Position numbers and translations under genes: made by a program. Below, in pieces: positions 23,700 through 63,553 of a stretch of DNA of 64,000 bases. This stretch comes from Rhodospirillales bacterium. GTDB lineage: Bacteria > Pseudomonadota > Alphaproteobacteria > TMED109. Every line of letters begins with the position of its first letter. The first letter of the stretch is position 1. The stretch is taken from positions 62,001-126,000 of the forward strand of contig JAPPED010000007.1 in assembly GCA_028824295.1 (NCBI GenBank), read 5' to 3'. Under the pieces are notes generated by a model that was not told the DNA's origin, made no database searches, and saw nothing but the letters and a program-made list of their open reading frames with translations.

Positions 23700-23773
23700 G
23701 CTGACCCCCTAACGTTTTTCCCGTCGCCCTGCCCAGTCGGCAAGACTGATGGCGTTGCCCCGAGTTTCTTCAG

Positions 23774-25093: not shown

Positions 25094-25101
25094 GATGCTT
25101 C

Positions 25102-45343: not shown

Positions 45344-45416
45344 GACGTCCTCTGCCAAGACCTGATTGATGCGTCGTTCGCGCCGCCGGTGCTTTCTGAA
45401 AAAGGACGGATCTATT

Positions 45417-46409
45417 ATGATTTCGGACATGCTGGAGTCCCGGTTGGTCAACCGCCGCGTTGCCTTCGTCTTGGTCGAGGGCTTCGCCCTGATGTCCTTC
45501 GCGGCCGTGACCGAGCCCCTGCGCGCGGCCAACCTGCTGGCTGGCAGGCGCATCTACGAACTGTTCCATTTCGCCGCCGGACCGGGAGCCACGAAGACGC
45601 TGAACAGCTCGTCCGCAGCCTCGGTCACGGTCGGTGACCTGCAGGAAACGACGGAAACCTTTGATCTCGCGTTCGTCGTTGCAGGAGGCGACCCGGTCGG
45701 CTTTCGCAGTCCCCGACTGTTCCAGTGGCTAAGGCGACAGGCGCAGCACGGCTGCATGCTGGGAGGTGTGTCCGGCGGACCGGCGATCCTTGCCAGCGCA
45801 GGCGTCATGGACAACCGGCGGATGACGGTTCACTGGGAGCACTATGCCGCCCTCGCCGAGCGTCATCCCGGCCTCCTTCTCGAACGCACCCTCTACGTCG
45901 TCGACCGGGACCGGATGACATGTGCCGGGGGGACGGCTCCGCTGGACATGATGCACGCTCTGATCGCCGAACATCACGGACCGGACTTCGCCCGGAAGGT
46001 CAGTGACTGGTTCATGCACACCGATGTCAGGCCTGCCGGAGGCCCGCAGCGGGCCGGACTGGCGCAGCGCTACGGCACCAACCGTCCCGCCGTTCTGGCC
46101 GCGATCGAGGTCATGGAAAACCACGTTGCGGACCCGCTGCCGCTCACCGTCCTCGCCCAGGTGGTCGGCGTGAGCGTCCGCCAACTGAATCGCCAGTTCA
46201 AGGCCGGGCTGGGCCGCAGTGCCGGGGGGTTCTACCGGGCTCTCCGCCTCGAGAAATCCCGAGAACTGCTGCATCAGACCAGCCTGCCCGTTCTCGAGAT
46301 CGCGATCGCCACGGGCTTTTCCGGCGCGGCACATTTCGCGACCGCCTACCGTCAGCGGTACGGCGCGGCACCGTCACACGATCGCCTGGAAGCGCTGCAC
46401 GGGCACTGA
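45417..46409 (+). CDS. GlxA-type AraC-family transcriptional regulator (DJ-1/PfpI domain)
   Basis: This 330-residue regulator has an N-terminal DJ-1/PfpI-like sensor domain (about 10-175; RRVAFVLVEGFALMSFAAVTEP-like start, VSGGPAILASAGVMD, MTCAGGTAPLDMMHAL). A C-terminal AraC DNA-binding domain follows (about 225-325; LTVLAQVVGVSVRQLNRQFK and VLEIAIATGFSGAAHFATAY). The same architecture controls glycine betaine, carnitine and the rhizobial glx operon. It is divergent from mgdA with only 73 bases between starts, so it most likely controls mgd. ATG 45417 has AAGGA about 10 bases upstream; ATG 45429 is also possible. Confidence 0.88.
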   Translation: MISDMLESRLVNRRVAFVLVEGFALMSFAAVTEPLRAANLLAGRRIYELFHFAAGPGATKTLNSSSAASVTVGDLQETTETFDLAFVVAGGDPVGFRSPRLFQWLRRQAQHGCMLGGVSGGPAILASAGVMDNRRMTVHWEHYAALAERHPGLLLERTLYVVDRDRMTCAGGTAPLDMMHALIAEHHGPDFARKVSDWFMHTDVRPAGGPQRAGLAQRYGTNRPAVLAAIEVMENHVADPLPLTVLAQVVGVSVRQLNRQFKAGLGRSAGGFYRALRLEKSRELLHQTSLPVLEIAIATGFSGAAHFATAYRQRYGAAPSHDRLEALHGH

Positions 46410-46438: not shown

Positions 46439-46456
46439 GACCAATTCTGACCAATT
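46439..46456 (+). promoter_or_regulatory. Direct repeat GACCAATTCTGACCAATT upstream of amt
   Basis: Two ACCAATT units (46440-46446 and 46450-46456) lie exactly 10 bases apart, 30 bases after the glxA-type stop and about 160 bases before the amt start. The same 18-base sequence occurs on the minus strand at 63536-63553 between tmm and the binding-protein gene, and related repeats flank the gntR and second synthetase genes. One-turn spacing suggests protein binding on one DNA face. Confidence 0.65.
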
Positions 46457-46617
46457 TTTCGCTGAAATGATTGAAGTATCCGATGGAAAGCGCCATGCTG
46501 CCCGAGAACGGATATTTGCCGGCCGGCGGACAGTTGGTTGGAACCGGTTCTTGCGGTACGACCCACGGAGCGCGGCGCGATGAGACAGCCGTTCGAGTAA
46601 CCGGGGGAGCCAAAACC

Positions 46618-47970
46618 GTGGAAGGCAATCTTAATGCCCTGACAACGGTGTTCACCGAGTTCTATTACTGGGCGACCATACCGTTGATGTTTTTCATTCA
46701 TATCGGCTTTTGCATGTACGAGGTCGGCGCCAGTAGGCGGCGCAATCACCTGCATACGCTGATGAAGAACACGATGCTGATCCCATTGGTGACGATCACG
46801 TTCTTCTTCTTCGGCTGGTGGTTGTACTGGGCGATGCCGAACGGCCCGTTCATCACCGGCGGCCTTGACACCGAAATGGCGGCAGCCAACACCGCCTGGT
46901 CGGAGAACATGGGTCCGCATACCGGCGACCGCATAACCGGCGTGTTCTGGGCAGCCTTCCTGCTGTTCTCCTGGACGGCAGCTTCCATTGTCTCCGGCTC
47001 CGTCATCGAACGGATCAAGTCCGGCGCGTTCTGGATCCTTGCGGTGGTCATCGGATCGGTCGCATGGATTATCGACGCAGCCTGGGGCTGGCACTACGGC
47101 GGCTGGATGGTCCAGTTGCTCGGCTACCACGACGCGTACGCCTCCGGCGTGATTCACGCGATCGCTGGGGGATTCGCGCTGGGTGTCCTTGTCGTCCTGG
47201 GGCCGCGGCTTGGCAAGTTCGCCAAGGACGGCACTCCCCGAAGCATCAATCCACACAACCCCTGGATGGTGTGTCTCGGCCTGTTCTTGATCTACGCGGG
47301 CTTCTGGGGCTTCTACGTGGCCTGCAACGTCCCGATCATCGATCCTGGCGGCATTGGCGGGCAGATCACCGGCGATACCTGGACAGCGACAACGATTTAC
47401 CTGACCCCGACGACACTCGGTGCCATCACGGTGAATTTCCTGATGTCGCTTTCGGGCGGATTGCTGGTCGGCTTCCTCGCCTCCAAGGGCAATCCTTTCT
47501 GGACCTATTCCGGTGGACTTGCCGGCATCATCACGGCGTCGGCCGGGAACGACCTGTATCACCCGATCCACGCGATGATCATCGCCGGCATCGGTACCTA
47601 CTGTGCCTACAAGCTGCACTACTGGGTGGAAGAGAAGTTCAAGATCGACGACGCGGTCGGCGCGGTGGCAGTGCACGGCTACGCCGGCTTCATCGGTCTG
47701 GTGATTTGCGGCTTCGTGCTGTGGGGTCACCCGAGCTCGCCGTACGAAGGCTACGCGGCCATCAATCCGCTCGGCCAGTTCATCGGCGCGATCATCATGT
47801 TCTTCGTGCTGGGATTCGTGCCGGGCTGGATCGTGGCCAAGATCCTGGCGGCAATGGACCTGCTGCGGATTCCAAGGCGGGTCGAACTGCTGGGACTTGA
47901 CTTCAAGTCCAACCGGGAAGAGCAGGCGGCTGCGGCCGATGTCCGCTCAACCGAGAAGGCGGCCGTCTGA
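46618..47970 (+). CDS. amt: Ammonium/methylammonium transporter (Amt family)
   Basis: This protein (450 residues) is an 11-helix Amt channel. The two pore histidines are in GVIHAIAGG and VAVHGYAGF, and AWGWHYGGWMVQLLGY lies in the expected region. Amt proteins carry ammonium and methylammonium. The start is placed at GTG 46618 because GGGGGAG lies 9-14 bases upstream and the protein then begins VEGNLNALTTVFTEFYYW. Earlier in-frame ATGs would add a poorly conserved 49-residue segment. It lies between the GlxA-type gene and a small membrane-protein gene. No glnK partner is present. Methylamine uptake is inferred from context and from the repeat at 46439. Confidence 0.88.
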   Translation: MEGNLNALTTVFTEFYYWATIPLMFFIHIGFCMYEVGASRRRNHLHTLMKNTMLIPLVTITFFFFGWWLYWAMPNGPFITGGLDTEMAAANTAWSENMGPHTGDRITGVFWAAFLLFSWTAASIVSGSVIERIKSGAFWILAVVIGSVAWIIDAAWGWHYGGWMVQLLGYHDAYASGVIHAIAGGFALGVLVVLGPRLGKFAKDGTPRSINPHNPWMVCLGLFLIYAGFWGFYVACNVPIIDPGGIGGQITGDTWTATTIYLTPTTLGAITVNFLMSLSGGLLVGFLASKGNPFWTYSGGLAGIITASAGNDLYHPIHAMIIAGIGTYCAYKLHYWVEEKFKIDDAVGAVAVHGYAGFIGLVICGFVLWGHPSSPYEGYAAINPLGQFIGAIIMFFVLGFVPGWIVAKILAAMDLLRIPRRVELLGLDFKSNREEQAAAADVRSTEKAAV

Positions 47971-48346: not shown

Positions 48347-49690
48347 TCAGCTCCAGGGAAACGGGCTGTTGCTCAGCGGATGCAGCTTCCCATCCGCGTA
48401 GCGGCTGAACCGGAAAGGCTCCAGCAGGGCCTGCTTCCGGCCCATGATCTCGTCGGCAACCAGGTGCCCGACACCGATCATCTTGAACCCATGGTTGCTG
48501 TCGGCGATGACGTAGACGTTCTCGCAGAAGGTGTCGAATACCGGAAAGCTGTCCGGTGTGAAGCACCCCAGGCCACCGGACGGTTCTTTCTTGAATTTCC
48601 CGATCTGGCCGGTGAAGCGTTCCTGGCAGAAGGCCAGGGCCGAGCACCACATGTGGGCGAAGTCGGGGCCGACCACGAACTCGGGCGAATCCGGGCCGTA
48701 GGGATCGATCGCCACATCGTCCGCCGGAGTCTTCACCTCGTACGGCATGCCGCCGCCCTGGACTCCGCCGAAATGGAAGTCCGGCTTGTAATAGATCCCC
48801 CACGGCTCCTCGGTGATGACCGAGCCATCGACATCGGAGCGGAGCGGCACGTCGGTGTCGACGTGGATCACCGGCGGCATGCCGCCGTCGTTGAGCTTCT
48901 GCAGGCCGGGATCCACCCCGATGACACCCTCCTCCAGGCACCAGTAGCGCCATGTCGGAATCCCACGGTGCATCGTACCGTCGGGGCCCTTGATCGACAC
49001 TTCACGCGGCAACTCGAGCAGGTCCCAGATCGTCTTGACCCAAGGACCCACGGCCACGATCACCTGGTCGCACTCGATCGTGCCCCGGTCGGTGACCACG
49101 GCCGTCACCGCGTCGGACTGGCCGCCACGCTCGAATGCGCTGACCGACACACCGGTGAGAATGCGGACGCCCCGGGCCTCAGCCTTGTCCGCCAGGCCGT
49201 AGATGGCGGCAGTGTTGTTCGCATAGCCGCCTTTCTTCTCGTGCAGGACGGAGGTGATGCCGTCGGCACGCCAGTCGTTCAGGAGGCCGCGCATGTAGGC
49301 CGTGCAGTCTCGCTGGCCCTCGATGAACTCGGAGGGGTAGCCGATCGCCTTCTGCTGCTCGTAGATGCTGGTCACATCTTCACGCATGGCCTCGTGGCTG
49401 ACCTGCATGTAGCCGACCGGGTGATAACTGAAGGCCTTTGGATCGGATTCCCATACCTCTACGCTGTGCGCCATCAGTTCGCGCATCGCCGGCTGGAAAT
49501 AGTTGTTCCGCACGACGCCGCAGGCGATGCCGCTCGCACCGGCGGCGATCGCGGTCTTGTCGATCACCAGGATGTCCTGGCCGCCACCCTTGCCAGCCGC
49601 CGCCGATTGCTCGGCGAGTCGCCAAGCGGTCGACAGCCCGTGGACTCCGGCCCCGATCACGACATAGCGGGCATGTGTGGGAAAACTCAT
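48347..49690 (-). CDS. FAD-dependent amine oxidoreductase (DAO family)
   Basis: This 447-residue flavoprotein has the DAO/sarcosine-oxidase plan: ARYVVIGAGVHGLSTAWRLA at the N-terminus, ASGIACGVVRNNYFQP, QVIVAVGPWVKTIWDLL in the middle, and a C-terminal FAD-contacting segment ADSNHGFKMIGVGHLVADEI. It differs from mgdA (no RHDAV covalent-FMN motif, no partner delta or gamma genes), so it should act alone. It is divergent from a second GlxA-type regulator, mirroring mgdA and its regulator. Oxidation of an N-methyl amino acid such as N-methylglutamate, N,N-dimethylglutamate or dimethylglycine fits, but the substrate is inference. Confidence 0.82.
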   Translation of the reverse strand: MSFPTHARYVVIGAGVHGLSTAWRLAEQSAAAGKGGGQDILVIDKTAIAAGASGIACGVVRNNYFQPAMRELMAHSVEVWESDPKAFSYHPVGYMQVSHEAMREDVTSIYEQQKAIGYPSEFIEGQRDCTAYMRGLLNDWRADGITSVLHEKKGGYANNTAAIYGLADKAEARGVRILTGVSVSAFERGGQSDAVTAVVTDRGTIECDQVIVAVGPWVKTIWDLLELPREVSIKGPDGTMHRGIPTWRYWCLEEGVIGVDPGLQKLNDGGMPPVIHVDTDVPLRSDVDGSVITEEPWGIYYKPDFHFGGVQGGGMPYEVKTPADDVAIDPYGPDSPEFVVGPDFAHMWCSALAFCQERFTGQIGKFKKEPSGGLGCFTPDSFPVFDTFCENVYVIADSNHGFKMIGVGHLVADEIMGRKQALLEPFRFSRYADGKLHPLSNSPFPWS

Positions 49691-50859: not shown

Positions 50860-51420
50860 GTGACTCCCGAGACCCTGCGCCAGCAGTTCCTCACTTGGCA
50901 ATGCCGCCTTCGCCAGATCGCCATGCGCGAGGACGGCGGGCGGCCTTCCGCAGGCATGCGGCCGAAAATACTGTCGCCCGACCTACGCACGCTTTCCGAA
51001 GGCGTGATCGTCCTCCTGGTCCGCAGTGACCCGGCAGAAAGCACGGACTTCTTCCAGTTCCAGCTGAGAAAGAACCATGACCCCAACGAGGTCTACCAGA
51101 AAGGCCTGTCCTTTCTGCAATCGACCCACTATCACCGGGCCAGTCAGTTTTCGGACGAAATGACAGCCCTGTTCCTGCCCGAATCCCGGCTTGCAGCACT
51201 GCTGGTCGCCCTGCAGGCGTGCCGGCTGGATTTCCGGCAGTTCGGCCAGTCCTATCGCCTGCCCTGCGAGGTGCGCGAACTGGCGCCGGAAGAACCGGCC
51301 TACAGGAATACGCTGTGGCACAACCGGCTGTTCAACGCCCAGCTCTCCGACGACGTGCGGATTCTCGGCTTCAAACCGGACTGGAGAGCTGCGACGGAGA
51401 GGCAGGTCGAAGCGGGCTGA
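50860..51420 (+). CDS. Conserved-looking protein of unknown function (186 aa)
   Basis: I do not recognise this family. The protein starts with GTG at 50860 and is soluble, with no signal peptide or membrane helix. It has even amino acid use typical of a real gene, an early WQCRLRQIAMREDGGRPSAG segment and a Cys-containing LLVALQACRLDFRQFGQSYR segment. It begins 57 bases after the second GlxA-type gene on the same strand, and converges with the 136-residue unknown of the second synthase module. Its place in the amine cluster suggests an accessory role. Confidence 0.7.
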   Translation: MTPETLRQQFLTWQCRLRQIAMREDGGRPSAGMRPKILSPDLRTLSEGVIVLLVRSDPAESTDFFQFQLRKNHDPNEVYQKGLSFLQSTHYHRASQFSDEMTALFLPESRLAALLVALQACRLDFRQFGQSYRLPCEVRELAPEEPAYRNTLWHNRLFNAQLSDDVRILGFKPDWRAATERQVEAG

Positions 51421-51533: not shown

Positions 51534-51944
51534 TCAGAACTTTCGATAGGCCCGGTAGAGGTCGACCAACGGATGATCCGGCGACATCTGGAACTTGATC
51601 AGCATTTCCCGGGCGATCATGTCGCGGTCCTGCTGGTTGTCCGGCAATTCCATGTCTTCGGGAATGGCGACCCAACCGTTGATGTTTCGGTCGAACACTG
51701 CGGCCTGCCCGTCGTCGTAACCCATGTGGACGTCTTCCAGCCAGTTGAGGTCATCCCAGCCCATGAATTCCAGGTAGTCCTTCAGAAACGGTGTCAGCCT
51801 GTCATAGTCAGGCAGGAGATTGACATCGTACCGGTAGCCGATGTGCTGCCCGATAGCCTGTTCGCGTTCCGAATCAATGCCGTCGCCCTTCAGGAAGTGG
51901 TCGACATCGTCGATCTGAGCGCCCTTGTAACCGGATCCCGGCAT
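51534..51944 (-). CDS. Unrecognised small acidic protein at the end of the second synthase operon (136 aa)
   Basis: No family is recognised. The protein is acidic and soluble, rich in Asp, Tyr and Trp (for example KDYLEFMGWDDLNWLEDVHM), with no membrane segment or cysteine motif. GGGAGGGG upstream supports ATG 51944. It begins 16 bases after the stop of the FMN-subunit gene, so it is very likely co-transcribed with, and may be an extra subunit or chaperone of, the second glutamate-synthase-like complex. The first (mgsABC-gmaS) set has no equivalent gene. Confidence 0.72.
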   Translation of the reverse strand: MPGSGYKGAQIDDVDHFLKGDGIDSEREQAIGQHIGYRYDVNLLPDYDRLTPFLKDYLEFMGWDDLNWLEDVHMGYDDGQAAVFDRNINGWVAIPEDMELPDNQQDRDMIAREMLIKFQMSPDHPLVDLYRAYRKF

Positions 51945-51960
51945 CCTGTTCCCCTCCCGC

Positions 51961-53337
51961 CTAAATGTGGTGGTAGTCCTCGACACCAACCGTGAAGTCG
52001 GTGCCGGCGAGCGGAACCTGCGCGATCGCGGAGGCCTCCATCGTCAACGCCGCCAGGTCTTCCGGCTCAAGGCTGTGGATGTTGGTCTTGCCGCACGCGC
52101 GGGCCATCATCTGCGCTTCCAGAGTCAGCGTGTGCAGGAAATTGTAGACGCGCTCGGCAGCCTCATCGGGATTGAGGCGCTTGCGCAACGCCGGATCCTG
52201 CGTGGCCACGCCGACCGGGCAGCGCCCAGTGTGGCAGTGATAGCAGGCGCCCGCCGGCACCCCCATCTCCGATGGAAAGTCAGCTTCCGGGATGTCCTTG
52301 TTGCAGTTCAGCGCCATCATCGCCGAATGGCCGACCGCGATCGCGTCCGCGCCGAGGGCAAGCGCCTTGGCGACATCGCCACCGTTGCGGATACCGCCGG
52401 CATAGATCAGTGAGATTTCGCCTCGCTTGCCCAGATCGTCGATCGCCCGACGGGCCTGCCTGATCGCGGCCATGCCGGGCACGCCGGTGTCTTCGGTCGC
52501 CAGGTGCGGGCCGGCGCCGGTGCCGCCTTCCATGCCGTCGATATAGATCGAGTCCGGGTCGCACTTCACCGCCATGCGGACATCGTCATAGACGCGGGCG
52601 GCGCCGAGCTTGAGCTGAATCGGGATTTGCCAATCCGTCGCCTCCCTGATTTCGAGAATCTTCAGCGCCAGATCGTCGGGCCCCAGCCAGTCGGGATGCC
52701 GGGCCGGTGAACGTTGGTCGATACCGGCGGGGAGCGACCGCATCTCGGCGACCTGGTCGGTCACCTTCTGTCCCATCAGATGGCCACCCAACCCGACCTT
52801 GCAGCCCTGACCAATGAAGAACTCGCACCCGTCCGCCAGCAGCAGATGGTGCGGATTGAAGCCGTAGCGCGACTGGATGCACTGGTAGAACCACTTGGCC
52901 GAGTAGCGCCGTTCGTCCGGGATCATGCCGCCTTCGCCCGAACAGGTCGCGGTGCCGGCCATCGTGGCGCCGCGGGCGAGTGCCGTCTTGGCCTCGAACG
53001 AAAGTGCCCCGAAGCTCATGCCCGTGATGTAGATGGGAATGTCCAGTTCCAGCGGGCATTTGGCGCGCGGCCCGATGACCGTCTTGGTTTCGCACTTCTC
53101 GCGATAGCCCTCAATGACGAAACGCGTCAGTGTGCCTGGCAGGAACGTCAGATCATCCCAATGCGGGATCTTCTTGAACAGGGAGAATCCGCGCATACGG
53201 TAACGGCCGAGCTCGGATTTCACGTGGATGTCGTTGATGACTTCCGGCGTGAAAATCTGACTTCTGCCGAGAACGTACTTTTCTTCAGCTTCCAGCTTGG
53301 AGTGGCCGTTGCCACCCGGGTTCGGATCGTCCGACAT
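51961..53337 (-). CDS. Glutamate synthase FMN-domain-like protein (second set)
   Basis: This 458-residue protein is a paralogue of MgsC/GlxD. The FMN barrel shows IYITGMSFGALSFEAKTALA, FIGQGCKVGLGGHLMGQKVT, YAGGIRNGGDVAKALALGADAIAVG and the cluster cysteines in ACYHCHTGRCPVG. Compared with MgsC at 23774 it is longer at the N-terminus and only moderately similar, so the sets are old paralogues. The start at 53337 (MSDDPNPGGNG) is preferred. It follows the GXGXG gene by 47 bases and precedes the unknown 136-residue gene. It should transfer an amine or ammonia derived from an amide to 2-oxoglutarate or a related acceptor. Confidence 0.83.
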   Translation of the reverse strand: MSDDPNPGGNGHSKLEAEEKYVLGRSQIFTPEVINDIHVKSELGRYRMRGFSLFKKIPHWDDLTFLPGTLTRFVIEGYREKCETKTVIGPRAKCPLELDIPIYITGMSFGALSFEAKTALARGATMAGTATCSGEGGMIPDERRYSAKWFYQCIQSRYGFNPHHLLLADGCEFFIGQGCKVGLGGHLMGQKVTDQVAEMRSLPAGIDQRSPARHPDWLGPDDLALKILEIREATDWQIPIQLKLGAARVYDDVRMAVKCDPDSIYIDGMEGGTGAGPHLATEDTGVPGMAAIRQARRAIDDLGKRGEISLIYAGGIRNGGDVAKALALGADAIAVGHSAMMALNCNKDIPEADFPSEMGVPAGACYHCHTGRCPVGVATQDPALRKRLNPDEAAERVYNFLHTLTLEAQMMARACGKTNIHSLEPEDLAALTMEASAIAQVPLAGTDFTVGVEDYHHI

Positions 53338-53384
53338 GGCGGTCTCTTTCTTCGTACCTCGTTGCAGGAGAAGCAGGGCTGGTC

Positions 53385-54227
53385 CTAGAGGACCAGCTTC
53401 TTCTCCGTCGGCTCGAGATTGTCGTAACTCCACAGCTGCTTGCCCGCGACGATCTTGGTGAAATGATCCACGCCCTGTCCGGGCAGCAGTTCGTACATCT
53501 TCAGCTTGCGGCTCAGCCAGGCGCGATCGAGATCGGTCAGCTGGGCAAAAACGGCATCCACGCCCAGATCCCGGATCTTGCCACCCACGTAGATCGTGCC
53601 GTCATACATCGAGTCACCGAGATTCTTGCCGGCATCTCCGCAAACGACGATGCGCCCGCGCTGCATCATGAACCCGGAAAAAGCCCCCGTATCGCCGCCG
53701 ACGAGAATGGTGCCGCCCTTCTGGTCGATCCCGGTTCGCGAGCCGACCGAGCCCCTGCAGACCAGGTCACCGCCGCGCAACGCGGCACCGAACGTGGAGC
53801 CGGCATTCTCTTCCACGACGCAGACCCCGGCCATCATGTTTTCGCCGAACGACCAGCCGACGCGGCCGGAGATCCGGACGGTCGGGCCGTCCAGCAGGCC
53901 GCAGCCGAAGTAGCCGAGGCTACCTTCGACGATGATGTTCATCCGGTTCAGGATCCCAACGATCAGCGAGTGTTTGGCACCTGGATTCCGGAGGACAATG
54001 CTGCCGTAACCGGAATCCATGAGTTCCCGGATCTTCCGGTTGATCTCCGTCGGCTCCAGTTCGGCGCAATCGATCTCAGCACGTCGGTTGAAGTCGACAT
54101 CGCGGCCAAAGTGGTAGGCAAAGCCGCCTTCGTGCTCGAGTGTGAACTTCGTCTTGATATCCCGGCCCGTCAGGGGCTCGGTGTGCATGCCCATCTGGGT
54201 GGAGGTGGAATCGGTCAGGCCTGCCAT
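53385..54227 (-). CDS. Glutamate synthase GXGXG-domain-like protein (second set)
   Basis: This 280-residue protein has the glutamate synthase GXGXG beta-helix, visible as repeated turns in RISGRVGWSFGENMMAGVCV, GTILVGGDTGAFSGFMMQRG and RIVVCGDAGKNLGDSMYDGT. It is 53 residues longer than MgsB of the first set, mainly through an N-terminal segment (DIKTKFTLEHEGGFAYHFGR) and a C-terminal tail. It overlaps the amidotransferase gene by 13 bases and lies between it and the FMN-subunit gene, as in the first set. It likely forms the structural core of a three-subunit synthase. Confidence 0.82.
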   Translation of the reverse strand: MAGLTDSTSTQMGMHTEPLTGRDIKTKFTLEHEGGFAYHFGRDVDFNRRAEIDCAELEPTEINRKIRELMDSGYGSIVLRNPGAKHSLIVGILNRMNIIVEGSLGYFGCGLLDGPTVRISGRVGWSFGENMMAGVCVVEENAGSTFGAALRGGDLVCRGSVGSRTGIDQKGGTILVGGDTGAFSGFMMQRGRIVVCGDAGKNLGDSMYDGTIYVGGKIRDLGVDAVFAQLTDLDRAWLSRKLKMYELLPGQGVDHFTKIVAGKQLWSYDNLEPTEKKLVL

Positions 54228-55150
54228 ACCCGGACCTCCTCATCGTAGGGATCGGTCGTATCGATTTCGTGGGGGAGGATGGCCCGAATCGCGACTTCCT
54301 CGGAAGCAAGCGCGACCATGTCGTCCGCTTCGTAGAGCACCATCGGCTTTGCGGCCATCGTGTCCTTGGCCATGCCCAGTTCGTTTCCGGTCGTGATCAG
54401 ATAGGTGAACACCCCGTCGATCTCGTCGATGGACCTGTGGAGAGACTCCTCGAGCGTCATTCCCTTCTCGAGATTCACCGCCGTGTAGACCGCGAGAAGT
54501 TCCGAATCACAGTGGCTGACGAAACGCTGCCCGTCCCGCTCGAGCTGCCTGCGCATCAGCCAGTAATTGGTGATCTGGCCGTTATGGACGACGGCGATAT
54601 CATTGTACGGATAGGCCCAGTAGGGATGAGCGGAGCGAATGTCGACGTCGGATTCCGTGGCCATCCTCGTGTGGCCGATGCCGTGGGTCCCTTCGAACGT
54701 ACTCAGGGCGTAGGTTTCGGAAACCGACGCTGCGTCCCCGAGGTCCTTGATCAGTTCCAGGGCGTTGCCGATCGACAGGATTTCCCCGCCCTCGACCTCC
54801 TCGATGTGGTCGGCAAGGTTCTTCAGGTCGCCGCCGAACGAAATCCGGGAACGTAGGGCGTATTCCGTCGGCTCTTCCTGTTCCAGTACGTCGACCCCGA
54901 GTTCCTCCAGGACCGCGCCGACCGCCGCCTTGCGCTCCCTGATGGCCCGGTGAATCTTGGTCCCGCCGTCCAGGTCCTCCTTCTCAGCAACCTTGAAGCG
55001 CATGACGTACTCGTTCGGGCCGGGTGCGCCATACATGGCGAAGCCGGTGGAATCCGGGCCCCGGTGTTTCAATGCCTGCAGCATGGCGGTCATCTCTTCG
55101 CCAATCTTGCGGGCGCCGTCGCGATAAATCAGTCCGGCTATGCCACACAT
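54215..55150 (-). CDS. Class II glutamine amidotransferase-like protein (second set)
   Basis: This 311-residue protein begins MCGIAGLIYRDGARK, giving Cys2 as N-terminal nucleophile, and has KHRGPDSTGFAMYG, GIGHTRMATESDVDIRSAHP and AVVHNGQITNYWLMRRQL, matching the amidotransferase domain of glutamate synthase. It hydrolyses the gamma-amide of glutamine or a gamma-glutamyl amide and passes the amine on. It lies 65 bases downstream of the divergent glutamine-synthetase-like gene and overlaps the GXGXG gene. As a paralogue of MgsA it may have a different amide preference. Confidence 0.84.
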   Translation of the reverse strand: MCGIAGLIYRDGARKIGEEMTAMLQALKHRGPDSTGFAMYGAPGPNEYVMRFKVAEKEDLDGGTKIHRAIRERKAAVGAVLEELGVDVLEQEEPTEYALRSRISFGGDLKNLADHIEEVEGGEILSIGNALELIKDLGDAASVSETYALSTFEGTHGIGHTRMATESDVDIRSAHPYWAYPYNDIAVVHNGQITNYWLMRRQLERDGQRFVSHCDSELLAVYTAVNLEKGMTLEESLHRSIDEIDGVFTYLITTGNELGMAKDTMAAKPMVLYEADDMVALASEEVAIRAILPHEIDTTDPYDEEVRVWQA

Positions 55151-55215
55151 GGCCGATCACTCCTTCCAGGGACCCGAGTGTCTGAGGCGGGAAGCTCAAG
55201 CATCTCCGGGCGGCC

Positions 55216-56685
55216 CTACGGCAGACAGTCCAGGTAGGTGTCGATGTCCCATTCGGTGGTCGTGTGCAGGAACCGCTCCCATTCGTCTCGCTTGTACTCG
55301 TCGTACAACCGATACATCTCGCCGGGCATGGCGGACTTGATGACCTCGTCGGTAGCGAGCGCGTCCAGCGCGGCGCCCAGCGTCATCGGCAGCCTCTTGA
55401 CCTGCTTGCCCGCTTCCATTGCCTCGTAGATGTTGCGGTCTTCCGGCGGACCCGGATCGATGTCGTTCCTGATGCCGTCATCGGCCGCCTTGAGGATGGC
55501 GCCGGCCATCAGGTGCGGGTTCACCATCGAGTCCACCGAGCGGTACTCGAATCTGCCCGGTGCCGAAATCCGCAGGCCGGTCGTGCGGTTCTGGTAGCCC
55601 CAGTCGGCGAATACCGGCGCCCAGAAACCGGTGTCCCAAAGTCGACGGTATGAGTTCACCGTCGAAGCGCCGATGGCAGTCAATGCGGCCAGGTGCTTCA
55701 CGATGCCGCCAACCACCTGCAGGCCTACCTTGCCCGGCAGCTGCGGATCGTCGGTATCGGGCATGAACGTGTTCTCGCCATCCTTCCGGTACATGAAGTT
55801 CTGTTCCATGCCGGGTAGCGGATCGTTATTCAGCGGGACGAGTTCATCCTGGCCACCGCGCCACAGCGAGATGTTGTGGTGACACCCGGAGGCCGACACG
55901 TTCATGAACGGCTTCGACAGGAAGCAGGCGATGAGGTTGAACTCGCGGGCGACCTGCGCACAGATCTGACGATAGGTCGTCAGTCGGTCGGCCGTCCGCA
56001 ATGCGTCGTCGAATGTGAAATTCAGTTCGAGCTGACCCGGCGCGTCCTCATGGTCGCCCTGGATCATGTCCAGCCCCATGGCACGCGAATACTCGATCAC
56101 CCGCAGGTACACCGGTCGAAGGCTCTCGAACTGGTCGATGTGGTAGCAGTACGGATTGGAAAAACCGCCGTCGGGCTTGCCGTCTTCGCCTTTCTTCAGC
56201 CACATCATCTCCGGCTCGGTGCCGTGGCGCAGGTGCAGGCCGTCATGGTCTTCCTGGAACTGCTCGTGGATCCGCCGCAAGTTGCCTCGGCAATCCGCGG
56301 TCAGGAATGCGCCCGGGTTCTCGCGTTCCTCCCGGTTGCGGAACAGGGTGCACCACACGCGCGCCACCCGTTTGTCCCACGGCAGCTGGCAGAAGGTCTC
56401 CGGCTCCGGGATGCCCACCAGTTCCTTCTCGTGTGGTCCGTACCCGAGGTACTCGCCGTGGCGGTTCAGGAACAGGTTGACGGTCGCGCCGTAGACCAGT
56501 TGGAAACCGCGCTCGGCGATGGCTTCCCAGTGATCCGCCGGAATGCCCTTGCCGCAGATCCGTCCGGTGACCGACACGAATTGGAGGTACAGGTACTCGA
56601 CACCCAACTCGTCGATCTTGCTGCGCACCTGCTTGACCAGATCGTCCCGGCCGTCCTGTCGCACAAAGACTTCGATATCCGTCAT
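55216..56685 (-). CDS. Glutamine synthetase family protein, divergent second copy
   Basis: This 489-residue ATP-dependent ligase belongs to the glutamine synthetase family but is 54 residues longer than GmaS at 22392 and much diverged. Metal and substrate residues are kept: E157 and E159 in GTEPEMM, the MIQGDHEDAPGQLELNF segment with E213 and E220, His in SASGCHHNIS, Arg in NRTTGLRIS and RFEYRSVDSMVNPHL. GGGAAGG precedes ATG 56685. It heads the operon with the three glutamate-synthase-like genes and the unknown 136-residue protein, and an ACCAATA/ACCATTT repeat lies about 60 bases upstream. It should ligate an amine to glutamate; which amine is unknown. Confidence 0.82.
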   Translation of the reverse strand: MTDIEVFVRQDGRDDLVKQVRSKIDELGVEYLYLQFVSVTGRICGKGIPADHWEAIAERGFQLVYGATVNLFLNRHGEYLGYGPHEKELVGIPEPETFCQLPWDKRVARVWCTLFRNREERENPGAFLTADCRGNLRRIHEQFQEDHDGLHLRHGTEPEMMWLKKGEDGKPDGGFSNPYCYHIDQFESLRPVYLRVIEYSRAMGLDMIQGDHEDAPGQLELNFTFDDALRTADRLTTYRQICAQVAREFNLIACFLSKPFMNVSASGCHHNISLWRGGQDELVPLNNDPLPGMEQNFMYRKDGENTFMPDTDDPQLPGKVGLQVVGGIVKHLAALTAIGASTVNSYRRLWDTGFWAPVFADWGYQNRTTGLRISAPGRFEYRSVDSMVNPHLMAGAILKAADDGIRNDIDPGPPEDRNIYEAMEAGKQVKRLPMTLGAALDALATDEVIKSAMPGEMYRLYDEYKRDEWERFLHTTTEWDIDTYLDCLP

Positions 56686-56746: not shown

Positions 56747-56764
56747 GACCAATACGAACCATTT
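56747..56764 (+). promoter_or_regulatory. ACCAAT-type direct repeat upstream of the second synthetase
   Basis: GACCAATACGAACCATTT contains two related 7-base units (56748-56754 and 56758-56764) at exactly 10-base spacing, a weaker version of the repeat at 46439 and 63536. It lies about 60 bases from the synthetase start (minus strand), where a regulator could control its promoter. Confidence 0.5.
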
Positions 56765-56898
56765 AGCTGAATGCGGCCGGACGAACTCGGGTGAAACGAT
56801 TAGCAGCGAAAAATCAAGAATCCGCGCTAATTCTGGCTCCGCAACGGGCGCGGCCGGATGACCAGCTTGACTGAACGAACGCTACTTTGCACAGTTGC

Positions 56899-56938
56899 TT
56901 GACCAATTGCAAACCAATTACGCCAATATCGACCAATT
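56899..56938 (+). promoter_or_regulatory. Four-fold ACCAATT repeat over the putative gntR promoter
   Basis: Four units, ACCAATT (56902), ACCAATT (56913), GCCAATA (56922) and ACCAATT (56932), are spaced 11, 9 and 10 bases apart; the last forms the palindrome CCAATTGG. The array overlaps a possible promoter, TTGACC at 56899-56904 and CAATAT at 56924-56929 (19-base spacer), and lies 44 bases before the GTG start of gntR. This arrangement suggests autoregulation. Confidence 0.6.
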
Positions 56939-56981
56939 GGCGGATGTATGCTGTTTGCGGGAAATTCGGGGGAGTGCTGTC

Positions 56982-57722
56982 GTGGCCGACGCGCGTGCGC
57001 CTGTACAAGAATCTCGGCTAACAGCCGGTCCAGGCCTTGCCGAGGACGGCCGGCATGTCGGGTATATCACGACCCAACTGCGCGAGGCCATCCGCAGCGG
57101 TTTCTACGTCAACGGGGACCAGTTGCCCGCCGAGCGTGAGCTGGCCGAGCGGTTCGACACCGCACGCAGCACGATTCGCAAGGTCCTGTTCAATCTCGAG
57201 ACCGACGGCCTGATCGAACGCCGGGTGGGAAGCGGCACCTTCGTCAAATGCGAGGACATGGCGATCAGCGCTGCCCTCGACATCGTCAGCCGGGTCAGTC
57301 CACTGGAATTGATCGAGGCGCGGATGGCGGTCGAGCCGTACATGACCCGCCTGGCAGTACTCAATGCGACTGCCAACGAGATCAAGATGCTGGGATCGAT
57401 CCTGAACGATCTCGACCAATGCCGGAATGACAAGGAGGCCTTCTCCCGGCACGACAGCATGTTCCACGAATGGCTTGCCCGGAGCTCCAAGAATCCGCTG
57501 ATGCTCCACCTGTATCAGCAAATCAACGCGGTCCGCAGCCATGACCAGTGGGACGCGATGAAGAACAAGATCCTGACACCGGACGAGATCGACGAGTACA
57601 ACCGTCAGCACCGCGAGCTGTTCGAGGCGATCAAGCGTCGGGATCTGGTCTCCGCAGTCAAGCACATCGGCGACCACCTGGAAAAAGCACGGCAGGACCT
57701 GATGGGCGCTGCCGCGCTCTAG
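56982..57722 (+). CDS. GntR family transcriptional regulator, FadR/FCD type
   Basis: This 246-residue regulator has an N-terminal winged helix (YITTQLREAIRSGFYVNGDQ, LAERFDTARSTIRKVLFNLE, RRVGSGTFV) and an all-helical FCD ligand domain. The FCD metal residues are visible as Asp and His in SRHDSMFHEWLA, His in NRQHRELFEAI and His in VKHIGDHLEKAR, so it probably senses a small carboxylate. GTG 56982 is chosen because GGGGGAG lies 7 bases upstream. It is divergent from the second synthetase operon, and ACCAATT repeats cover its promoter, making it the best candidate for the factor that binds them. Confidence 0.87.
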   Translation: MADARAPVQESRLTAGPGLAEDGRHVGYITTQLREAIRSGFYVNGDQLPAERELAERFDTARSTIRKVLFNLETDGLIERRVGSGTFVKCEDMAISAALDIVSRVSPLELIEARMAVEPYMTRLAVLNATANEIKMLGSILNDLDQCRNDKEAFSRHDSMFHEWLARSSKNPLMLHLYQQINAVRSHDQWDAMKNKILTPDEIDEYNRQHRELFEAIKRRDLVSAVKHIGDHLEKARQDLMGAAAL

Positions 57723-57764: not shown

Positions 57765-58592
57765 CTACGGCGACTCTGGCGCAATCGGTCGGTCGTGATC
57801 GAGGACAGGGATCTTTTGACGCGCTTCCGCCACGGCTGCCAGGTCGACGTCGGCCACAACGATGCCCTCGCTGTCGCCACCGTCTGCCAGGACCTTGCCC
57901 CACGGATCGACGATCAGCGAATGGCCGAAACAGGCGCCGCCGCCCTCGACCTCGCCATACTGGCAGGGCGAGATCATGTAGCAGGCGTGTTCGATCGCCC
58001 GCGCCCGATTCAGGACATGCCAGTGCGCTTCGCCTGTTACCCGGGTGAAGGCAGCCGGGGCCGCCAGCATGGACGCGCCGTTGTGGGCAAGCTGCCGGTA
58101 CAACGGCGCAAACCGCAGGTCGTAGCAGATCGACAGGCCCAGTCCGCCCCACGGCGTGGGCACCACGACCGACCGGTCGCCAGGCGCGATCGTGGCCGAT
58201 TCCGTCAGTGGACCGGAGTCGAGCACGACATCGAACATGTGGACCTTGTTGTAACGCGCGACGACATCGCCGTCGCTGTTGATCACGTAGGACCGGTTCG
58301 AGATCCGGCCGTCTGGGTTCAGCACACCCAGCGAGCCGAGCAGGAACCAGACGTTCCAGTTGCGGGCCGCGGCGGCGAAGGCCGGCAGGACCGGGTGCGC
58401 GGCTTCCTCGAAGGCCGCAGGATGAAAGAGGCCATCCTCGGTTCGAAGCCCCGAGAAATATTCCGGCGTGCAGATCAGATCGGCTCCTGCCTCCACCGCC
58501 CGCTCCGCGAGGCGCAACGACGTCTCGATGTTGTGGGTAACGTCCGGCGTGGCATTGTTCTGGACGCAGGCCGCGACAAACCTGTTCGACAT
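57765..58592 (-). CDS. Carbon-nitrogen hydrolase (nitrilase superfamily, Nit/omega-amidase-like)
   Basis: This 275-residue protein has the nitrilase triad: E44 in CTPEYFSG, K116 in RYNKVHMFD and C156 in GLSICYDLRF. Length and motifs fit the Nit1/Nit2 branch (deaminated glutathione amidase or omega-amidase), which hydrolyses free amides of dicarboxylic acids. AGGAG lies just before ATG 58592. It begins 25 bases after the tdm stop on the same strand, so it is part of the tmm-TPR-tdm run, and it converges with gntR. It could hydrolyse a gamma-glutamyl or alpha-keto amide made in this pathway; that is inference. Confidence 0.85.
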   Translation of the reverse strand: MSNRFVAACVQNNATPDVTHNIETSLRLAERAVEAGADLICTPEYFSGLRTEDGLFHPAAFEEAAHPVLPAFAAAARNWNVWFLLGSLGVLNPDGRISNRSYVINSDGDVVARYNKVHMFDVVLDSGPLTESATIAPGDRSVVVPTPWGGLGLSICYDLRFAPLYRQLAHNGASMLAAPAAFTRVTGEAHWHVLNRARAIEHACYMISPCQYGEVEGGGACFGHSLIVDPWGKVLADGGDSEGIVVADVDLAAVAEARQKIPVLDHDRPIAPESP

Positions 58593-58617: not shown

Positions 58618-60990
58618 CTAGGCCCGTACCCGCGATTTCGTGGGATCGTAGAAGGGGAACGGCACCACCCGTGCCGGGATGCGCTTCTGGTGGCCGTCCA
58701 GCTTGCCGACTTCGACGGCGGTCCCGTCGTCCGAGGCGGTCACGTCTATGCGGCACAGGGCGATGTTCTTGCGCAGGACCGGTGAACGCATGGCGCTGGT
58801 GATGGTGCCGACCTGCGCCCGTCCGATGTGGACGCAGTCACCGTGGGCCGCCGGTTCCTGCCCATCCAGCTCCAAACCGACCAGCTTGCGCTGCGGGGAT
58901 TGCTTGCGCCGGACCAGGGCTTCCCGGCCGACGAAATCGTCTTCCTTCGTCTTCAGCGGAACCGTGAAGCCGATCCCGGCCTCGAACGGGTCGGTCTGGT
59001 CGTCAAATTCGTGGTTGGCGAAGATCAGACCGGCCTCAATCCGCACCATGTCAAGCGCTTCCAGTCCGAAGGGCGAGAGCCCGTGCGGTTCGCCGGCGGC
59101 CCAGATGGCATCCCAGACGTCACCAGCGTCGCGCGGATGGCACCAGACCTCGAAACCCAATTCGCCGGTGTAGCCGGTGCGGGAAACGACGACCGGAATT
59201 CCGGCATGATCGCCTATCCGGCCGATCGTGAACCGGAACCAGCCCAGCTCTTCCACTGCCGGCTGAGCCGGTGGAGTCCACACCACTTCCCGGAGGATCT
59301 CCCGGCTCTTCGGGCCCTGGACGGCCACGTTGTGAATCTGATCGGTCGACGAGCGCACCCAGACGTTGAGGTCGAGTGCTGCCGCCTGTTCACGCATCCA
59401 TTCGCCGCCGTAGTCGCATCCGCCGATCCACCGGAAATTGTCGTCGCCCAGCCGAAACGCCGTGCCGTCGTCGATCATGCCGCCGGTTTCGTAGCACATG
59501 GCCGAGTAGACCACCTGACCGGTGGCCAAGCGTCGCATGTTCCGGGTGAGCACCCACTGCATCAGGCGTTCGGCGTCCGGCCCCAGCACCTCGAACTTCC
59601 GGAGCGCGGACAGGTCCATGATCACCGCCCGCTCGCGGCAGGCCCAGTACTCGTCCAGCGCCCCCCGGTTGGTGAAACAGTTCGCTAGCCAATAACCGTT
59701 GTATTCGGTGAAGTTCCTCGTGTGCCTCGCAAACCGGCTGTGGAAACCGGTCTCCTTGGTCAGCTTCGGATCGGCGTCAGGGGTCATGCGATAGGCCATC
59801 GCTTTCGAGAAAACGTTCTCGCGCGGGTAGACCCGCACGTGAATGTCGGTCGGATTCCAGCCGTTGGCGGCATCGATATCGTCCGGACAGGCGGACGAGA
59901 CGCAGACGAGGTCGGTCAACGCCTGCAGCAGCACGTAATCGCCCGGTCGCGACCAGGGATTGTCGTGGAACGCCTGGTTGGCATCGTCGAATCCGGTGTT
60001 GAAGAAGAAGTTCAGCGCCATCCAGCCGCGGCGCGGCGCGATTCCGAACGGCCCCAGCGCTGTGTTGAAGTTGGCGGTGCAGTTGACATGGCCGGGATAG
60101 CCCATGTCGTCGTAGTACTTCGCCGTGCAGGCATACAGGAAACTGTCATGCCGGCCACACGTGTCGCGAATCACCTCGACCATCGGCTGCAGGTTCTGGT
60201 CGAAACACTTCGACAGCAGGCCCGGCGCCGGATACGCGCGGCCCATCAGGGTCCGCGTCGCCGTTGCGTCCAGGCAAAGTTCCAGATCCTTTTCCAGGCC
60301 GGCCGCGGCGAACGCCTGAAAGTCGGAGCTCTGCCGCCCCTGCACGTCGATGATCTGGATGAATTCGCCGGCCCTGACCTCGTAGGCCTCGGCCGTGCGG
60401 GCGGCAACGCGCCGGTCGATACGCGGGTCAGTCAGGGGCTCCGGCACCGGATGCTCGGCGGGTGCAACCGGGTTTGCACGGGTAACGAAGATTTCGATCC
60501 TAGTCGGCGGATCCTGCCGATCGACCCGCATCGCAGCACCCGGCGCTGCCACAAAGCACACCAGCGGCCGTTCGGCGGTGAATGTGGCCTCGTCGCCGGG
60601 GCGCGAGTCACCGCCCAGGACTTCTGTCGACCGCGCCGAGGCGATATCGAGACCGCGCCGTTGCAAGCTGACCGCAAGCGACCTGGCCGGTTCGTCGCCT
60701 GCGCCCAGGATCGCCTTCAGGCCTGCCGCAGTTCCGGTCGCCGCAACACCCAGCCCCTCCGTGTCCGCCGAGCCGGTCGGCGCGAAGGCGGATATCTCCG
60801 CGGCCTGCCGGCCCTCCCGGTCACGAACCGTGACCCTGTCGCCCGGTTCCAGTGAAAAGACCGTCGCGCCGCCGCCCTCGGCAACGTAGCGCTCGACTCC
60901 GACGCCCAGCGTGGGCATGCCGGGCAGCAGGACGGCGCCAGCCGTGGAGGGCACCTGCGAAATCGGCGGTTGCAGCGTCTGGATGATCAT
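58618..60990 (-). CDS. tdm: Trimethylamine N-oxide demethylase (aldolase) Tdm
   Basis: This 790-residue protein has the two-part Tdm layout. An N-terminal DUF1989-type region spans about 25-400 and an aminomethyltransferase (GcvT-like) domain about 420-785. Tdm splits TMAO into dimethylamine and formaldehyde, and the C-terminal domain can capture formaldehyde on tetrahydrofolate. Metal-site candidates are C288, H301 and C304 (GYPGHVNC) and C363 and C368 (VCVSSACPDD); their spacing agrees with cysteines reported for the Methylocella enzyme as I remember it. It lies downstream of tmm and a TPR-like gene and upstream of the nitrilase gene. A dimethylglycine dehydrogenase-like relative is the main alternative, but the FAD domain is missing. 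Confidence 0.88.
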   Translation of the reverse strand: MIIQTLQPPISQVPSTAGAVLLPGMPTLGVGVERYVAEGGGATVFSLEPGDRVTVRDREGRQAAEISAFAPTGSADTEGLGVAATGTAAGLKAILGAGDEPARSLAVSLQRRGLDIASARSTEVLGGDSRPGDEATFTAERPLVCFVAAPGAAMRVDRQDPPTRIEIFVTRANPVAPAEHPVPEPLTDPRIDRRVAARTAEAYEVRAGEFIQIIDVQGRQSSDFQAFAAAGLEKDLELCLDATATRTLMGRAYPAPGLLSKCFDQNLQPMVEVIRDTCGRHDSFLYACTAKYYDDMGYPGHVNCTANFNTALGPFGIAPRRGWMALNFFFNTGFDDANQAFHDNPWSRPGDYVLLQALTDLVCVSSACPDDIDAANGWNPTDIHVRVYPRENVFSKAMAYRMTPDADPKLTKETGFHSRFARHTRNFTEYNGYWLANCFTNRGALDEYWACRERAVIMDLSALRKFEVLGPDAERLMQWVLTRNMRRLATGQVVYSAMCYETGGMIDDGTAFRLGDDNFRWIGGCDYGGEWMREQAAALDLNVWVRSSTDQIHNVAVQGPKSREILREVVWTPPAQPAVEELGWFRFTIGRIGDHAGIPVVVSRTGYTGELGFEVWCHPRDAGDVWDAIWAAGEPHGLSPFGLEALDMVRIEAGLIFANHEFDDQTDPFEAGIGFTVPLKTKEDDFVGREALVRRKQSPQRKLVGLELDGQEPAAHGDCVHIGRAQVGTITSAMRSPVLRKNIALCRIDVTASDDGTAVEVGKLDGHQKRIPARVVPFPFYDPTKSRVRA

Positions 60991-61152: not shown

Positions 61153-61887
61153 CTACATGAAATCGCGCTCATGCACGATCGCCGTGAGATAGCCGGCTGC
61201 CAGGAGTCGACGGGTATCAGTCATCTCCGGCGGCTGTTCCCGGTGCCACGTGTCGAGCACGTCGGACGCTTGGTTCTTGACAGCAGCCTCGATCTTGGCG
61301 TCGTACGCGGCCATCCGGTCATCGTCCTCGGCGGCGTCGGCGCGACCCGACAGCACGCGCGCAATCTCCACGACCTCGGCATTGTTGGGCCCAAACGCTT
61401 GCTCGCGTTCGGCCAGCGCGGCCGCGAGCAGGCGGTCGGCCGTTTCGTCTTCATTCTGGAACAGCCGGGCGATGGCGAGGTTGAATCGCGTGAGGGCCGC
61501 CGCGCCGGCCAGGAATTCCCGGTGCCGGGCCCGCCGGACATCACCGTAGGTCTGGACGTGGCGCTGTTCCATGCGCTGGTGATAGAGCGAACTGCGGGCC
61601 ACGGCGGCAACCGCCATGCCGCGGGTCCACTCCAGCGCCGCATTCCACAAAGAAAGCGCTGACGACAGTGCCGGGACGGCGCAGCCATGATCCTGTTCGA
61701 TCAGGAAGACAAGCGCGCTGTTGTTCTCGCTGGCGGCCCGGCGTGGATCGCCCGCCGGAAAATCCTGCGACAACTCGCCGGCCCGACGCCACAAGTGGAC
61801 CGCTTCCTCCCGTCGCGCCGCCCGATAGGCGCCGAGTGCGGCGGCCGAGAGAGCGTCCCACTCCCATTCCATCGACACGTCGGCCAT
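61153..61887 (-). CDS. TPR-like helical protein between tmm and tdm
   Basis: This 244-residue protein is all-helical and Ala-rich, with tetratricopeptide-like turns such as GAYRAARREEAVHLWRRAGE and LTRFNLAIARLFQNEDETAD. No enzyme motif, signal peptide or membrane helix is seen. It begins 21 bases after the tmm stop and is followed by tdm 162 bases later, so it appears to be an operon member. A role as scaffold or chaperone for Tmm or Tdm is possible. I do not recognise a specific family. Confidence 0.72.
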   Translation of the reverse strand: MADVSMEWEWDALSAAALGAYRAARREEAVHLWRRAGELSQDFPAGDPRRAASENNSALVFLIEQDHGCAVPALSSALSLWNAALEWTRGMAVAAVARSSLYHQRMEQRHVQTYGDVRRARHREFLAGAAALTRFNLAIARLFQNEDETADRLLAAALAEREQAFGPNNAEVVEIARVLSGRADAAEDDDRMAAYDAKIEAAVKNQASDVLDTWHREQPPEMTDTRRLLAAGYLTAIVHERDFM

Positions 61888-63252: not shown

Positions 63253-63333
63253 CGTCTTACTCACTGTACTGGCGGGCAATCCGGTCTGACCCCGGTCACC
63301 CGCGCGGGTTCAAGTTTCGCCCGGAGGGCCGAA

Positions 63334-63360
63334 ACCAATCTATACCAATCTACACCACTA
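63334..63360 (+). promoter_or_regulatory. Triple ACCAATC/ACCACTA direct repeat upstream of tmm
   Basis: Units ACCAATC (63334), ACCAATC (63344) and ACCACTA (63354) follow one another at exactly 10-base spacing, about 80-110 bases upstream of the tmm start. They belong to the same motif family as the repeats near amt and gntR, with C replacing the last T. Confidence 0.55.
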
Positions 63361-63535: not shown

Positions 63536-63553
63536 AATTGGTCAGAATTGGTC
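63536..63553 (-). promoter_or_regulatory. Direct repeat GACCAATTCTGACCAATT (minus strand), upstream of the binding-protein gene
   Basis: Read on the minus strand, this is identical over 18 bases to the element upstream of amt at 46439-46456. It is 122 bases before the start of the ABC binding-protein gene and about 280 bases from tmm. Confidence 0.65.

Follow-up and report, generated by a model that had tools for sequence, protein, structure and literature searches.

Two described systems stand closest to the locus examined here, namely the GmaS–MgsABC–MgdABCD enzymes of the N-methylglutamate pathway, which act on monomethylamine, and the DmmDABC monooxygenase, which acts on dimethylamine (DMA). 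As a marine amine, DMA is relevant to climate. In SAR11 bacteria a chain making it (the trimethylamine N-oxide (TMAO) demethylase Tdm) and a chain using methylamine (GmaS) have been recognized with a gap between them. According to published work no SAR11 has dmmDABC, and from this absence it has been argued that DMA builds up in surface water and passes into the air (PMC5520151). The SAR11 type strain Candidatus Pelagibacter ubique HTCC1062 is reported to grow with TMAO, and the possible use of an isoenzyme of DmmDABC has been suggested for it (PMC8918994). Here, we analyzed a five-gene module at positions 51534–56685 of a 64,000-nucleotide stretch of a Rhodospirillales genome (assembly GCA_028824295.1, contig JAPPED010000007.1, positions 62,001 to 126,000; hereafter the window), which encodes a glutamine-synthetase relative, the three subunits of a glutamate-synthase-like enzyme and a 136-residue protein (u136). 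Judging from sequence comparisons, we propose with a probability of roughly 0.68 that this module is a DMA-degrading branch of the N-methylglutamate pathway.

The first-pass annotation of this DNA had recognized five open reading frames forming an operon and had set them beside the gmaS-mgsABC genes at 22392–26690, each subunit of the second set being longer. Coordinates, the minus strand, Pfam domains and lengths agree with that description (489 versus 435, 311 versus 302, 280 versus 227 and 458 versus 439 residues for the synthetase, amidotransferase, GXGXG and flavin mononucleotide (FMN) subunits, respectively; Table 1). Its question whether the five genes travel together in other genomes could be answered using u136, which matches no family in Pfam or NCBIfam, as a marker. 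This protein was present in 12 of 97 genomes, including six genera besides the window's own, and a wider scan yielded at least 582 encoding loci, from which 80 were retained (among them alpha- and gammaproteobacteria, SAR116 and Granulosicoccaceae included); it was not found in plasmid records. Neighbour-gene counts given below were taken over 90 loci and gene-order counts over the 86 loci holding all five genes. Since the order is identical in 85 of these 86 complete loci, which come from both alpha- and gammaproteobacteria, the five-gene cluster is not due to chance.

To relate the module to its possible substrate, 337 alphaproteobacterial genomes, each the single representative of its species and 85% complete or better, were scanned for u136 (32 genomes), full-length Tdm (30), GmaS (64) and PF11927 (44), the last of which we take to be the haem subunit of DMA monooxygenase. 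The marker and Tdm were found together in 23 genomes (p = 2e-22; this and the following co-occurrence p-values are not fully corrected for kinship), and the marker and GmaS in 28 (p = 4e-19). With PF11927 the relationship was reversed: strong matches were present in none of the 23 Tdm genomes with the module as compared to five of the seven without it (p = 1.5e-4), and the GmaS genomes comprised 28 with the module only, 15 with PF11927 only and none with both (p = 4e-5). A tally per family agrees, as 11 of the 17 Tdm-bearing families have the marker only, four PF11927 only, one the marker together with a weak PF11927 match, and one neither. The window's own genome gave no PF11927 match even at E = 1, and none of the module proteins matches this family. 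A dehydrogenase of the TMADH/DMADH type was also considered as the DMA enzyme of that genome and rejected, the PF00724 frames being only 410–414 residues long and hence too short. The module is accordingly found where DMA is made and where no known DMA enzyme is present. Because it co-occurs with Tdm and replaces Dmm, and because DMA is the sole compound between Tdm and GmaS, dimethylamine is most likely its substrate.

The gene order in SAR11 points in the same direction. Within this family, whose genomes mostly measure 0.7–1.6 Mb, the marker was present in 44 of 147 members; of the 54 members with a completeness of 90% or more, 24 carry it. HTCC1062 carries on one strand, in this order, tdm, a gene for a 116-residue protein, a flavin adenine dinucleotide (FAD) oxidase gene, the synthetase, the three subunits, u136, amt, mgsABC and gmaS. 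The identity of these genes is fixed because the end of u136 (1245731) and the start of amt (1245857) match the borders of a published intergenic region, 1245732–1245856, flanked by SAR11_1309, listed as hypothetical, and SAR11_1310, listed as amt (PMC2704228). The module therefore corresponds to SAR11_1305–1309, with u136 as SAR11_1309 and the FAD oxidase as SAR11_1304, and in HTCC1062 it occupies the position between tdm and gmaS where SAR11 has no known DMA enzyme. In the openly licensed literature we found no paper assigning a function to SAR11_1305–1309. By its position, SAR11_1305 is the module synthetase, which is consistent with the label glnT, glutamine synthetase, given to it in a study of HTCC1062 (PMC5069961). 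The name glnT has been used in the literature for both SAR11_1305 and SAR11_1316, which belong to two different families.

Turning to the synthetase itself, the module protein scores 305 bits against the GmaS model TIGR03105 (cut-off 469.6), compared to 671 bits for the true gmaS product of the window, and is 29% identical to GmaS. In a maximum-likelihood tree the module synthetases form one clade with 99/99 support, separate from the GmaS clade (100/99); GmaS, PuuA and GlnA all fall outside it, some joins being long-branched and unsure. Using residue positions taken from the solved GmaS structure (PMC7948447), the GmaS catalytic and pocket residues Lys30', Tyr147, Gln175, Asp177, Glu179, Glu186, Asn188, Trp300 and Arg312 were kept in 35 of 35 module synthetases (K46, Y181, Q209, D211, E213, E220, N222, W355 and R367 in the window protein). 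Val and Trp replace Asp50' and the flap Glu of GlnA in all 35, whereas the genome's own GlnA has Asp and Glu. With the GmaS residues kept and these two GlnA residues replaced, the module synthetases are predicted to make amides from an amine that is not ammonia. An ordinary ammonia glutamine synthetase was rejected on account of the missing ammonia-site residues and the separate clade. The suggestion of the first-pass annotation that the synthetase had diverged while keeping its catalytic residues is thereby borne out, and the phylogeny it had called for does not place the protein inside the ammonia-specific glutamine synthetases.

GmaS accepts DMA with a Km of 16 mM, as opposed to 27 micromolar for methylamine (PMC7948447), and gamma-glutamyl-dimethylamide can therefore form. 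In a degrader of a cyclic secondary amine, derived from molinate, genes with adjacent locus numbers are reported for a P450 system and a glutamine synthetase (PMC9477822). The nearest relatives of the module synthetases in the tree are synthetases of Ruegeria, Paracoccus, Rhodococcus, Streptomyces and Gordonia plasmids, several of which adjoin cytochrome P450 or aldehyde dehydrogenase genes. These clusters have no assigned amine substrate and GmaS-type synthetases accept several amines (PMC7948447), which, together with the nine module genomes without Tdm, would favour a module handling another small amine (ethylamine, ethanolamine, isopropylamine or other) by the same chemistry. We regard this as unlikely, as it leaves unexplained the association with Tdm (p = 2e-22), the exclusion of PF11927, and the folD-fhs neighbours and the operator shared with tmm described below.

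The remaining subunits have the make-up of MgsABC, that is, an amidotransferase with an N-terminal Cys, a GXGXG subunit and an FMN subunit with a Cys cluster. The nucleophile Cys stands at residue 2 in 101 of the 101 amidotransferase matches beginning at residue 1, and the cluster motif CxxCxxxxCP is present in nearly all homologues of the FMN subunit. In the FMN-subunit tree a long branch separates the module subunit from MgsC, whose clade has 100/99 support; the lone row labelled 'mgsC' inside the module clade is the window's own module protein, a duplicate. As to u136, 45 of its 136 positions are invariant among 94 homologues, and a PDB search with its predicted fold (predicted local distance difference test (pLDDT) 76.5) gave no meaningful match. 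The gene types shared with gmaS-mgsABC, as well as the glutamine synthetase annotation in HTCC1062 (PMC5069961), might point to a second gene set assimilating monomethylamine or ammonia, either redundant or of high affinity. This is highly improbable, considering the separate long-branched clades of both synthetase and FMN subunit, the absent ammonia-site residues and the unlikelihood of redundancy in a streamlined 1.3-Mb genome; the exclusion of Dmm would moreover be left unexplained.

Based on the residues and the clade of the synthetase, we propose that this enzyme would use ATP to couple DMA to glutamate, yielding gamma-glutamyl-dimethylamide. By subunit types and analogy with MgsABC, the three-part enzyme would then split this amide by means of its N-terminal Cys and move DMA to the FMN site, where reaction with 2-oxoglutarate would give an iminium that is reduced to N,N-dimethylglutamate. 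The FAD oxidase, to judge from its DAO fold and the folate genes, may take one methyl group from this compound as a one-carbon unit for tetrahydrofolate, leaving N-methylglutamate, which could enter the existing MgdABCD enzymes, MgdA- and MgdC-type genes being present in the window. Four module genomes without gmaS, one of which (G112) is rated 100% complete, have a SoxA/MgdC-family protein, which weakly suggests that the product joins at N-methylglutamate. In bacteria making DMA from TMAO without DmmDABC, SAR11 included, the module would thus do the work of Dmm. In the openly licensed literature, a search for a part played by gamma-glutamyl-dimethylamide or by dimethylglutamate in the metabolism of bacteria returned nothing relevant.

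Alternatively, the module might convert DMA via gamma-glutamyl-dimethylamide and free monomethylamine for GmaS/MgsABC, in line with the presence of gmaS in 28 of the 32 module genomes and with amt and mgsABC-gmaS standing directly downstream in HTCC1062. The same four gmaS-less genomes speak against such a release, and a full second glutamate-synthase-like set makes little sense if the amine does not go to the alpha-amino position to give a methylated glutamate; we consider this route improbable. Still less probable is a role in breaking down a larger methylated compound, such as homarine, with N-methylglutamate as the end point. Mgd is reported to be involved in homarine catabolism (cited in PMC13390433), but the conserved operon is without an oxygenase or ring-cleaving enzyme, and the Tdm tie and the Dmm exclusion would again be unaccounted for.

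Several points weigh against the proposal of a DMA-degrading branch. Dmm was searched by a single subunit, PF11927, which is a broad family, and weak partial matches to it (51–59 bits) occur in three genomes of one genus, two of which have the module. Full-length Tdm is lacking in nine of the 32 module genomes. The SoxA/MgdC family also covers sarcosine oxidase, which weakens the argument from the gmaS-less genomes, and the FAD oxidase was not seen in 39 of the 86 complete modules, the available upstream stretch often being short. Finally, a glutamate-synthase-type enzyme acting on a secondary amine is chemically plausible, although we know of no precedent.

The FAD oxidase at 48347–49690 belongs to the system. 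In 33 of the 86 complete modules a DAO-fold FAD oxidase gene directly precedes the synthetase gene on the same strand, and in 13 others it lies at another place in the locus; the window's homologue is separated from the operon by two genes of opposite orientation. The extent of the module given in the first-pass annotation holds for the five genes but had overlooked this oxidase and its presence in SAR11. At the opposite end, folD-like and formate-tetrahydrofolate-ligase-like (fhs) genes lie 3' of u136 in the gammaproteobacterial loci L084, L085, L087, L093, L094, L098 and L114 (families assigned by eye from sequence), as expected if the methyl group passes to folate.

A tandem motif, ACCAWT-N4-ACCAWT, is found at four places in the window and in none of 30 Markov-simulated sequences, and the exact 18-mer GACCAATTCTGACCAATT occurs twice as compared to 0.05 expected occurrences. 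The copy between the synthetase and the divergent GntR gene is in the same place in same-genus relatives and mostly not kept outside the genus. We propose that this element is an operator common to the module, tmm and amtB. TmoR, a GntR regulator of Ruegeria pomeroyi, represses tmm and senses DMA (PMC13390433). A repeat common to the module and tmm/tdm had been noted from the sequence before, in agreement with the four copies, including those before tmm. The accompanying suggestion of another methylated amine, for example dimethylamine, is supported by this shared repeat as well as by the Tdm tie, the Dmm exclusion and the gene order in SAR11.

Table 1. The module and associated features of the window (positions within the 64,000-nucleotide stretch)
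Feature	Position	Strand	Basis and occurrence
gmaS-mgsABC, monomethylamine module	22392–26690	minus	gmaS TIGR03105, 671 bits
SoxA/MgdC-type subunit, same operon as 44093–45553	40712–43630	minus	TIGR01372, 1307 bits (cut-off 1164)
SoxB/MgdA-type subunit, N-methylglutamate dehydrogenase operon	44093–45553	minus	TIGR01373, 659 bits (cut-off 529)
Tandem ACCAWT element before amtB	46439–46456	plus	
AmtB-family transporter	46471–47970	plus	34/90 loci; HTCC1062 homologue SAR11_1310 (amt) adjoins module
FAD oxidase, DAO/sarcosine-oxidase type, 447 residues; proposed N,N-dimethylglutamate demethylase	48347–49690	minus	PF01266, 127 bits
Accessory 186-residue protein, predicted FMN split-barrel (PPOX-like)	50860–51420	plus	65/90 loci
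u136, 136 residues, module marker	51534–51944	minus	No Pfam/NCBIfam match
FMN/Fe-S subunit, 458 residues	51961–53337	minus	PF01645, 302 bits
GXGXG beta-helix subunit, structural, 280 residues	53385–54227	minus	PF01493 above cut-off
Class-II glutamine amidotransferase subunit, 311 residues, N-terminus MCGI	54215–55150	minus	GATase_6/7
Proposed gamma-glutamyl-dimethylamide synthetase (GS2, glutamine-synthetase fold), 489 residues	55216–56685	minus	Gln-synt_C, tree, residues
Tandem ACCAWT element, putative operator, between synthetase and GntR	56748–56763	plus	
GntR/FCD regulator, divergent from operon	56895–57722	plus	PF07729, PF00392; 64/90 loci
Carbon-nitrogen hydrolase adjoining module	57765–58592	minus	PF00795; 33/90 loci
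TMAO demethylase Tdm (DMA supplier)	58618–60990	minus	NF053776, 1236 bits (cut-off 1100)
Trimethylamine monooxygenase Tmm	61909–63279	minus	NF058570, 830 bits (cut-off 675)
Weaker second tandem ACCAWT copy before tmm	63334–63349		
Tandem ACCAWT element before tmm	63536–63553	minus	

Among the neighbouring genes (Table 1), tdm lies near the module in 38 of the 90 loci, and genes for glycine betaine/TMAO-type ABC transporters are present in 15 loci. The accessory 186-residue protein is not named by the Pfam and NCBIfam libraries. Its structure model (pLDDT 94.7) gave best PDB matches that are nearly all PPOX-like (E about 0.003–0.07, probability about 1), and it is a possible electron donor. It is absent from HTCC1062, for which reason it was rejected as an essential part of the module, and from the genomes that we take to be HTCC7211 and HIMB5. 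Between tdm and tmm, the window also encodes a 244-residue protein (61153–61887) with 76–93% identity within the genus.

Further genes of related families were observed at other loci. A class-I glutamine amidotransferase of about 240 residues lies near the module at L054:10422–11141 and in 12 further loci, and similar amidotransferase genes stand beside the P450-linked synthetases. Directly before close relatives of the module synthetase, the Ruegeria and Paracoccus plasmid loci L005 (11126–12433) and L006 (13490–14809) encode a very divergent glutamine-synthetase-like protein without Arg312, the surrounding genes being for P450, aldehyde dehydrogenase or class-I amidotransferase. A third glutamine-synthetase-like gene, with 31% identity to GmaS, lies near both modules in a complete genome of 1,410,127 bp (L031:3927–5261).

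Taken together, it seems somewhat more probable than the contrary that SAR11 and many other marine and sponge-associated bacteria degrade DMA by a glutamate-carrier route, and that the reported DMA bottleneck in the ocean, which was deduced from how scarce dmmDABC is, is largely an annotation gap. With a conserved block in HTCC1062, a long-standing gap is turned into testable, named genes (SAR11_1304–1309). If the proposal is true, u136 or the synthetase would provide a gene marker by which DMA users could be counted in metagenomes from the ocean, and glutamate-carrier chemistry would extend from primary to secondary amines. As far as we searched the openly licensed literature, known families of chemistry are found here in an arrangement and place without earlier description, the argument for one particular substrate being unusually good, and the system keeps the standing of an undescribed candidate which the first-pass annotation had given it.

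In comparison with known systems, the module resembles GmaS–MgsABC–MgdABCD in combining an amide synthetase with amidotransferase, GXGXG and FMN/Fe-S subunits, in keeping the catalytic residues and in often sharing the same locus; it differs in the separate clades of its synthetase and FMN subunit, its longer subunits, the additional u136, its own FAD oxidase and the proposed secondary-amine substrate. With DmmDABC (Lidbury 2017) it would share the task, the first demethylation of DMA in marine bacteria, although genes and chemistry are unrelated, ATP and glutamate being proposed instead of NADPH and O2, and the module was never found with a strong PF11927 match in the same genome among the 337. 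The synthetases linked to P450 or aldehyde dehydrogenase, as in Ruegeria SCSIO 43209 and Paracoccus TOH (both 56% identity), Rhodococcus and the Gordonia KTR9 plasmids, have the same catalytic residues as the module synthetase, but they are without glutamate-synthase-like subunits and u136, and their neighbours encode amidotransferases together with P450 or aldehyde dehydrogenase. GltB (GOGAT) has the same three domains with N-terminal Cys and Cys cluster, whereas the module is split into three proteins, its operon has no GltD partner and its proposed substrate is a dimethylamide, not glutamine. Lastly, the FAD oxidase has the DAO fold of the sarcosine oxidase/dimethylglycine dehydrogenase family, and its HTCC1062 homologue is listed as monomeric sarcosine oxidase, while the score of the window protein, 73 bits as compared to a soxB cut-off of 529, is well short of what the sarcosine oxidase models require.

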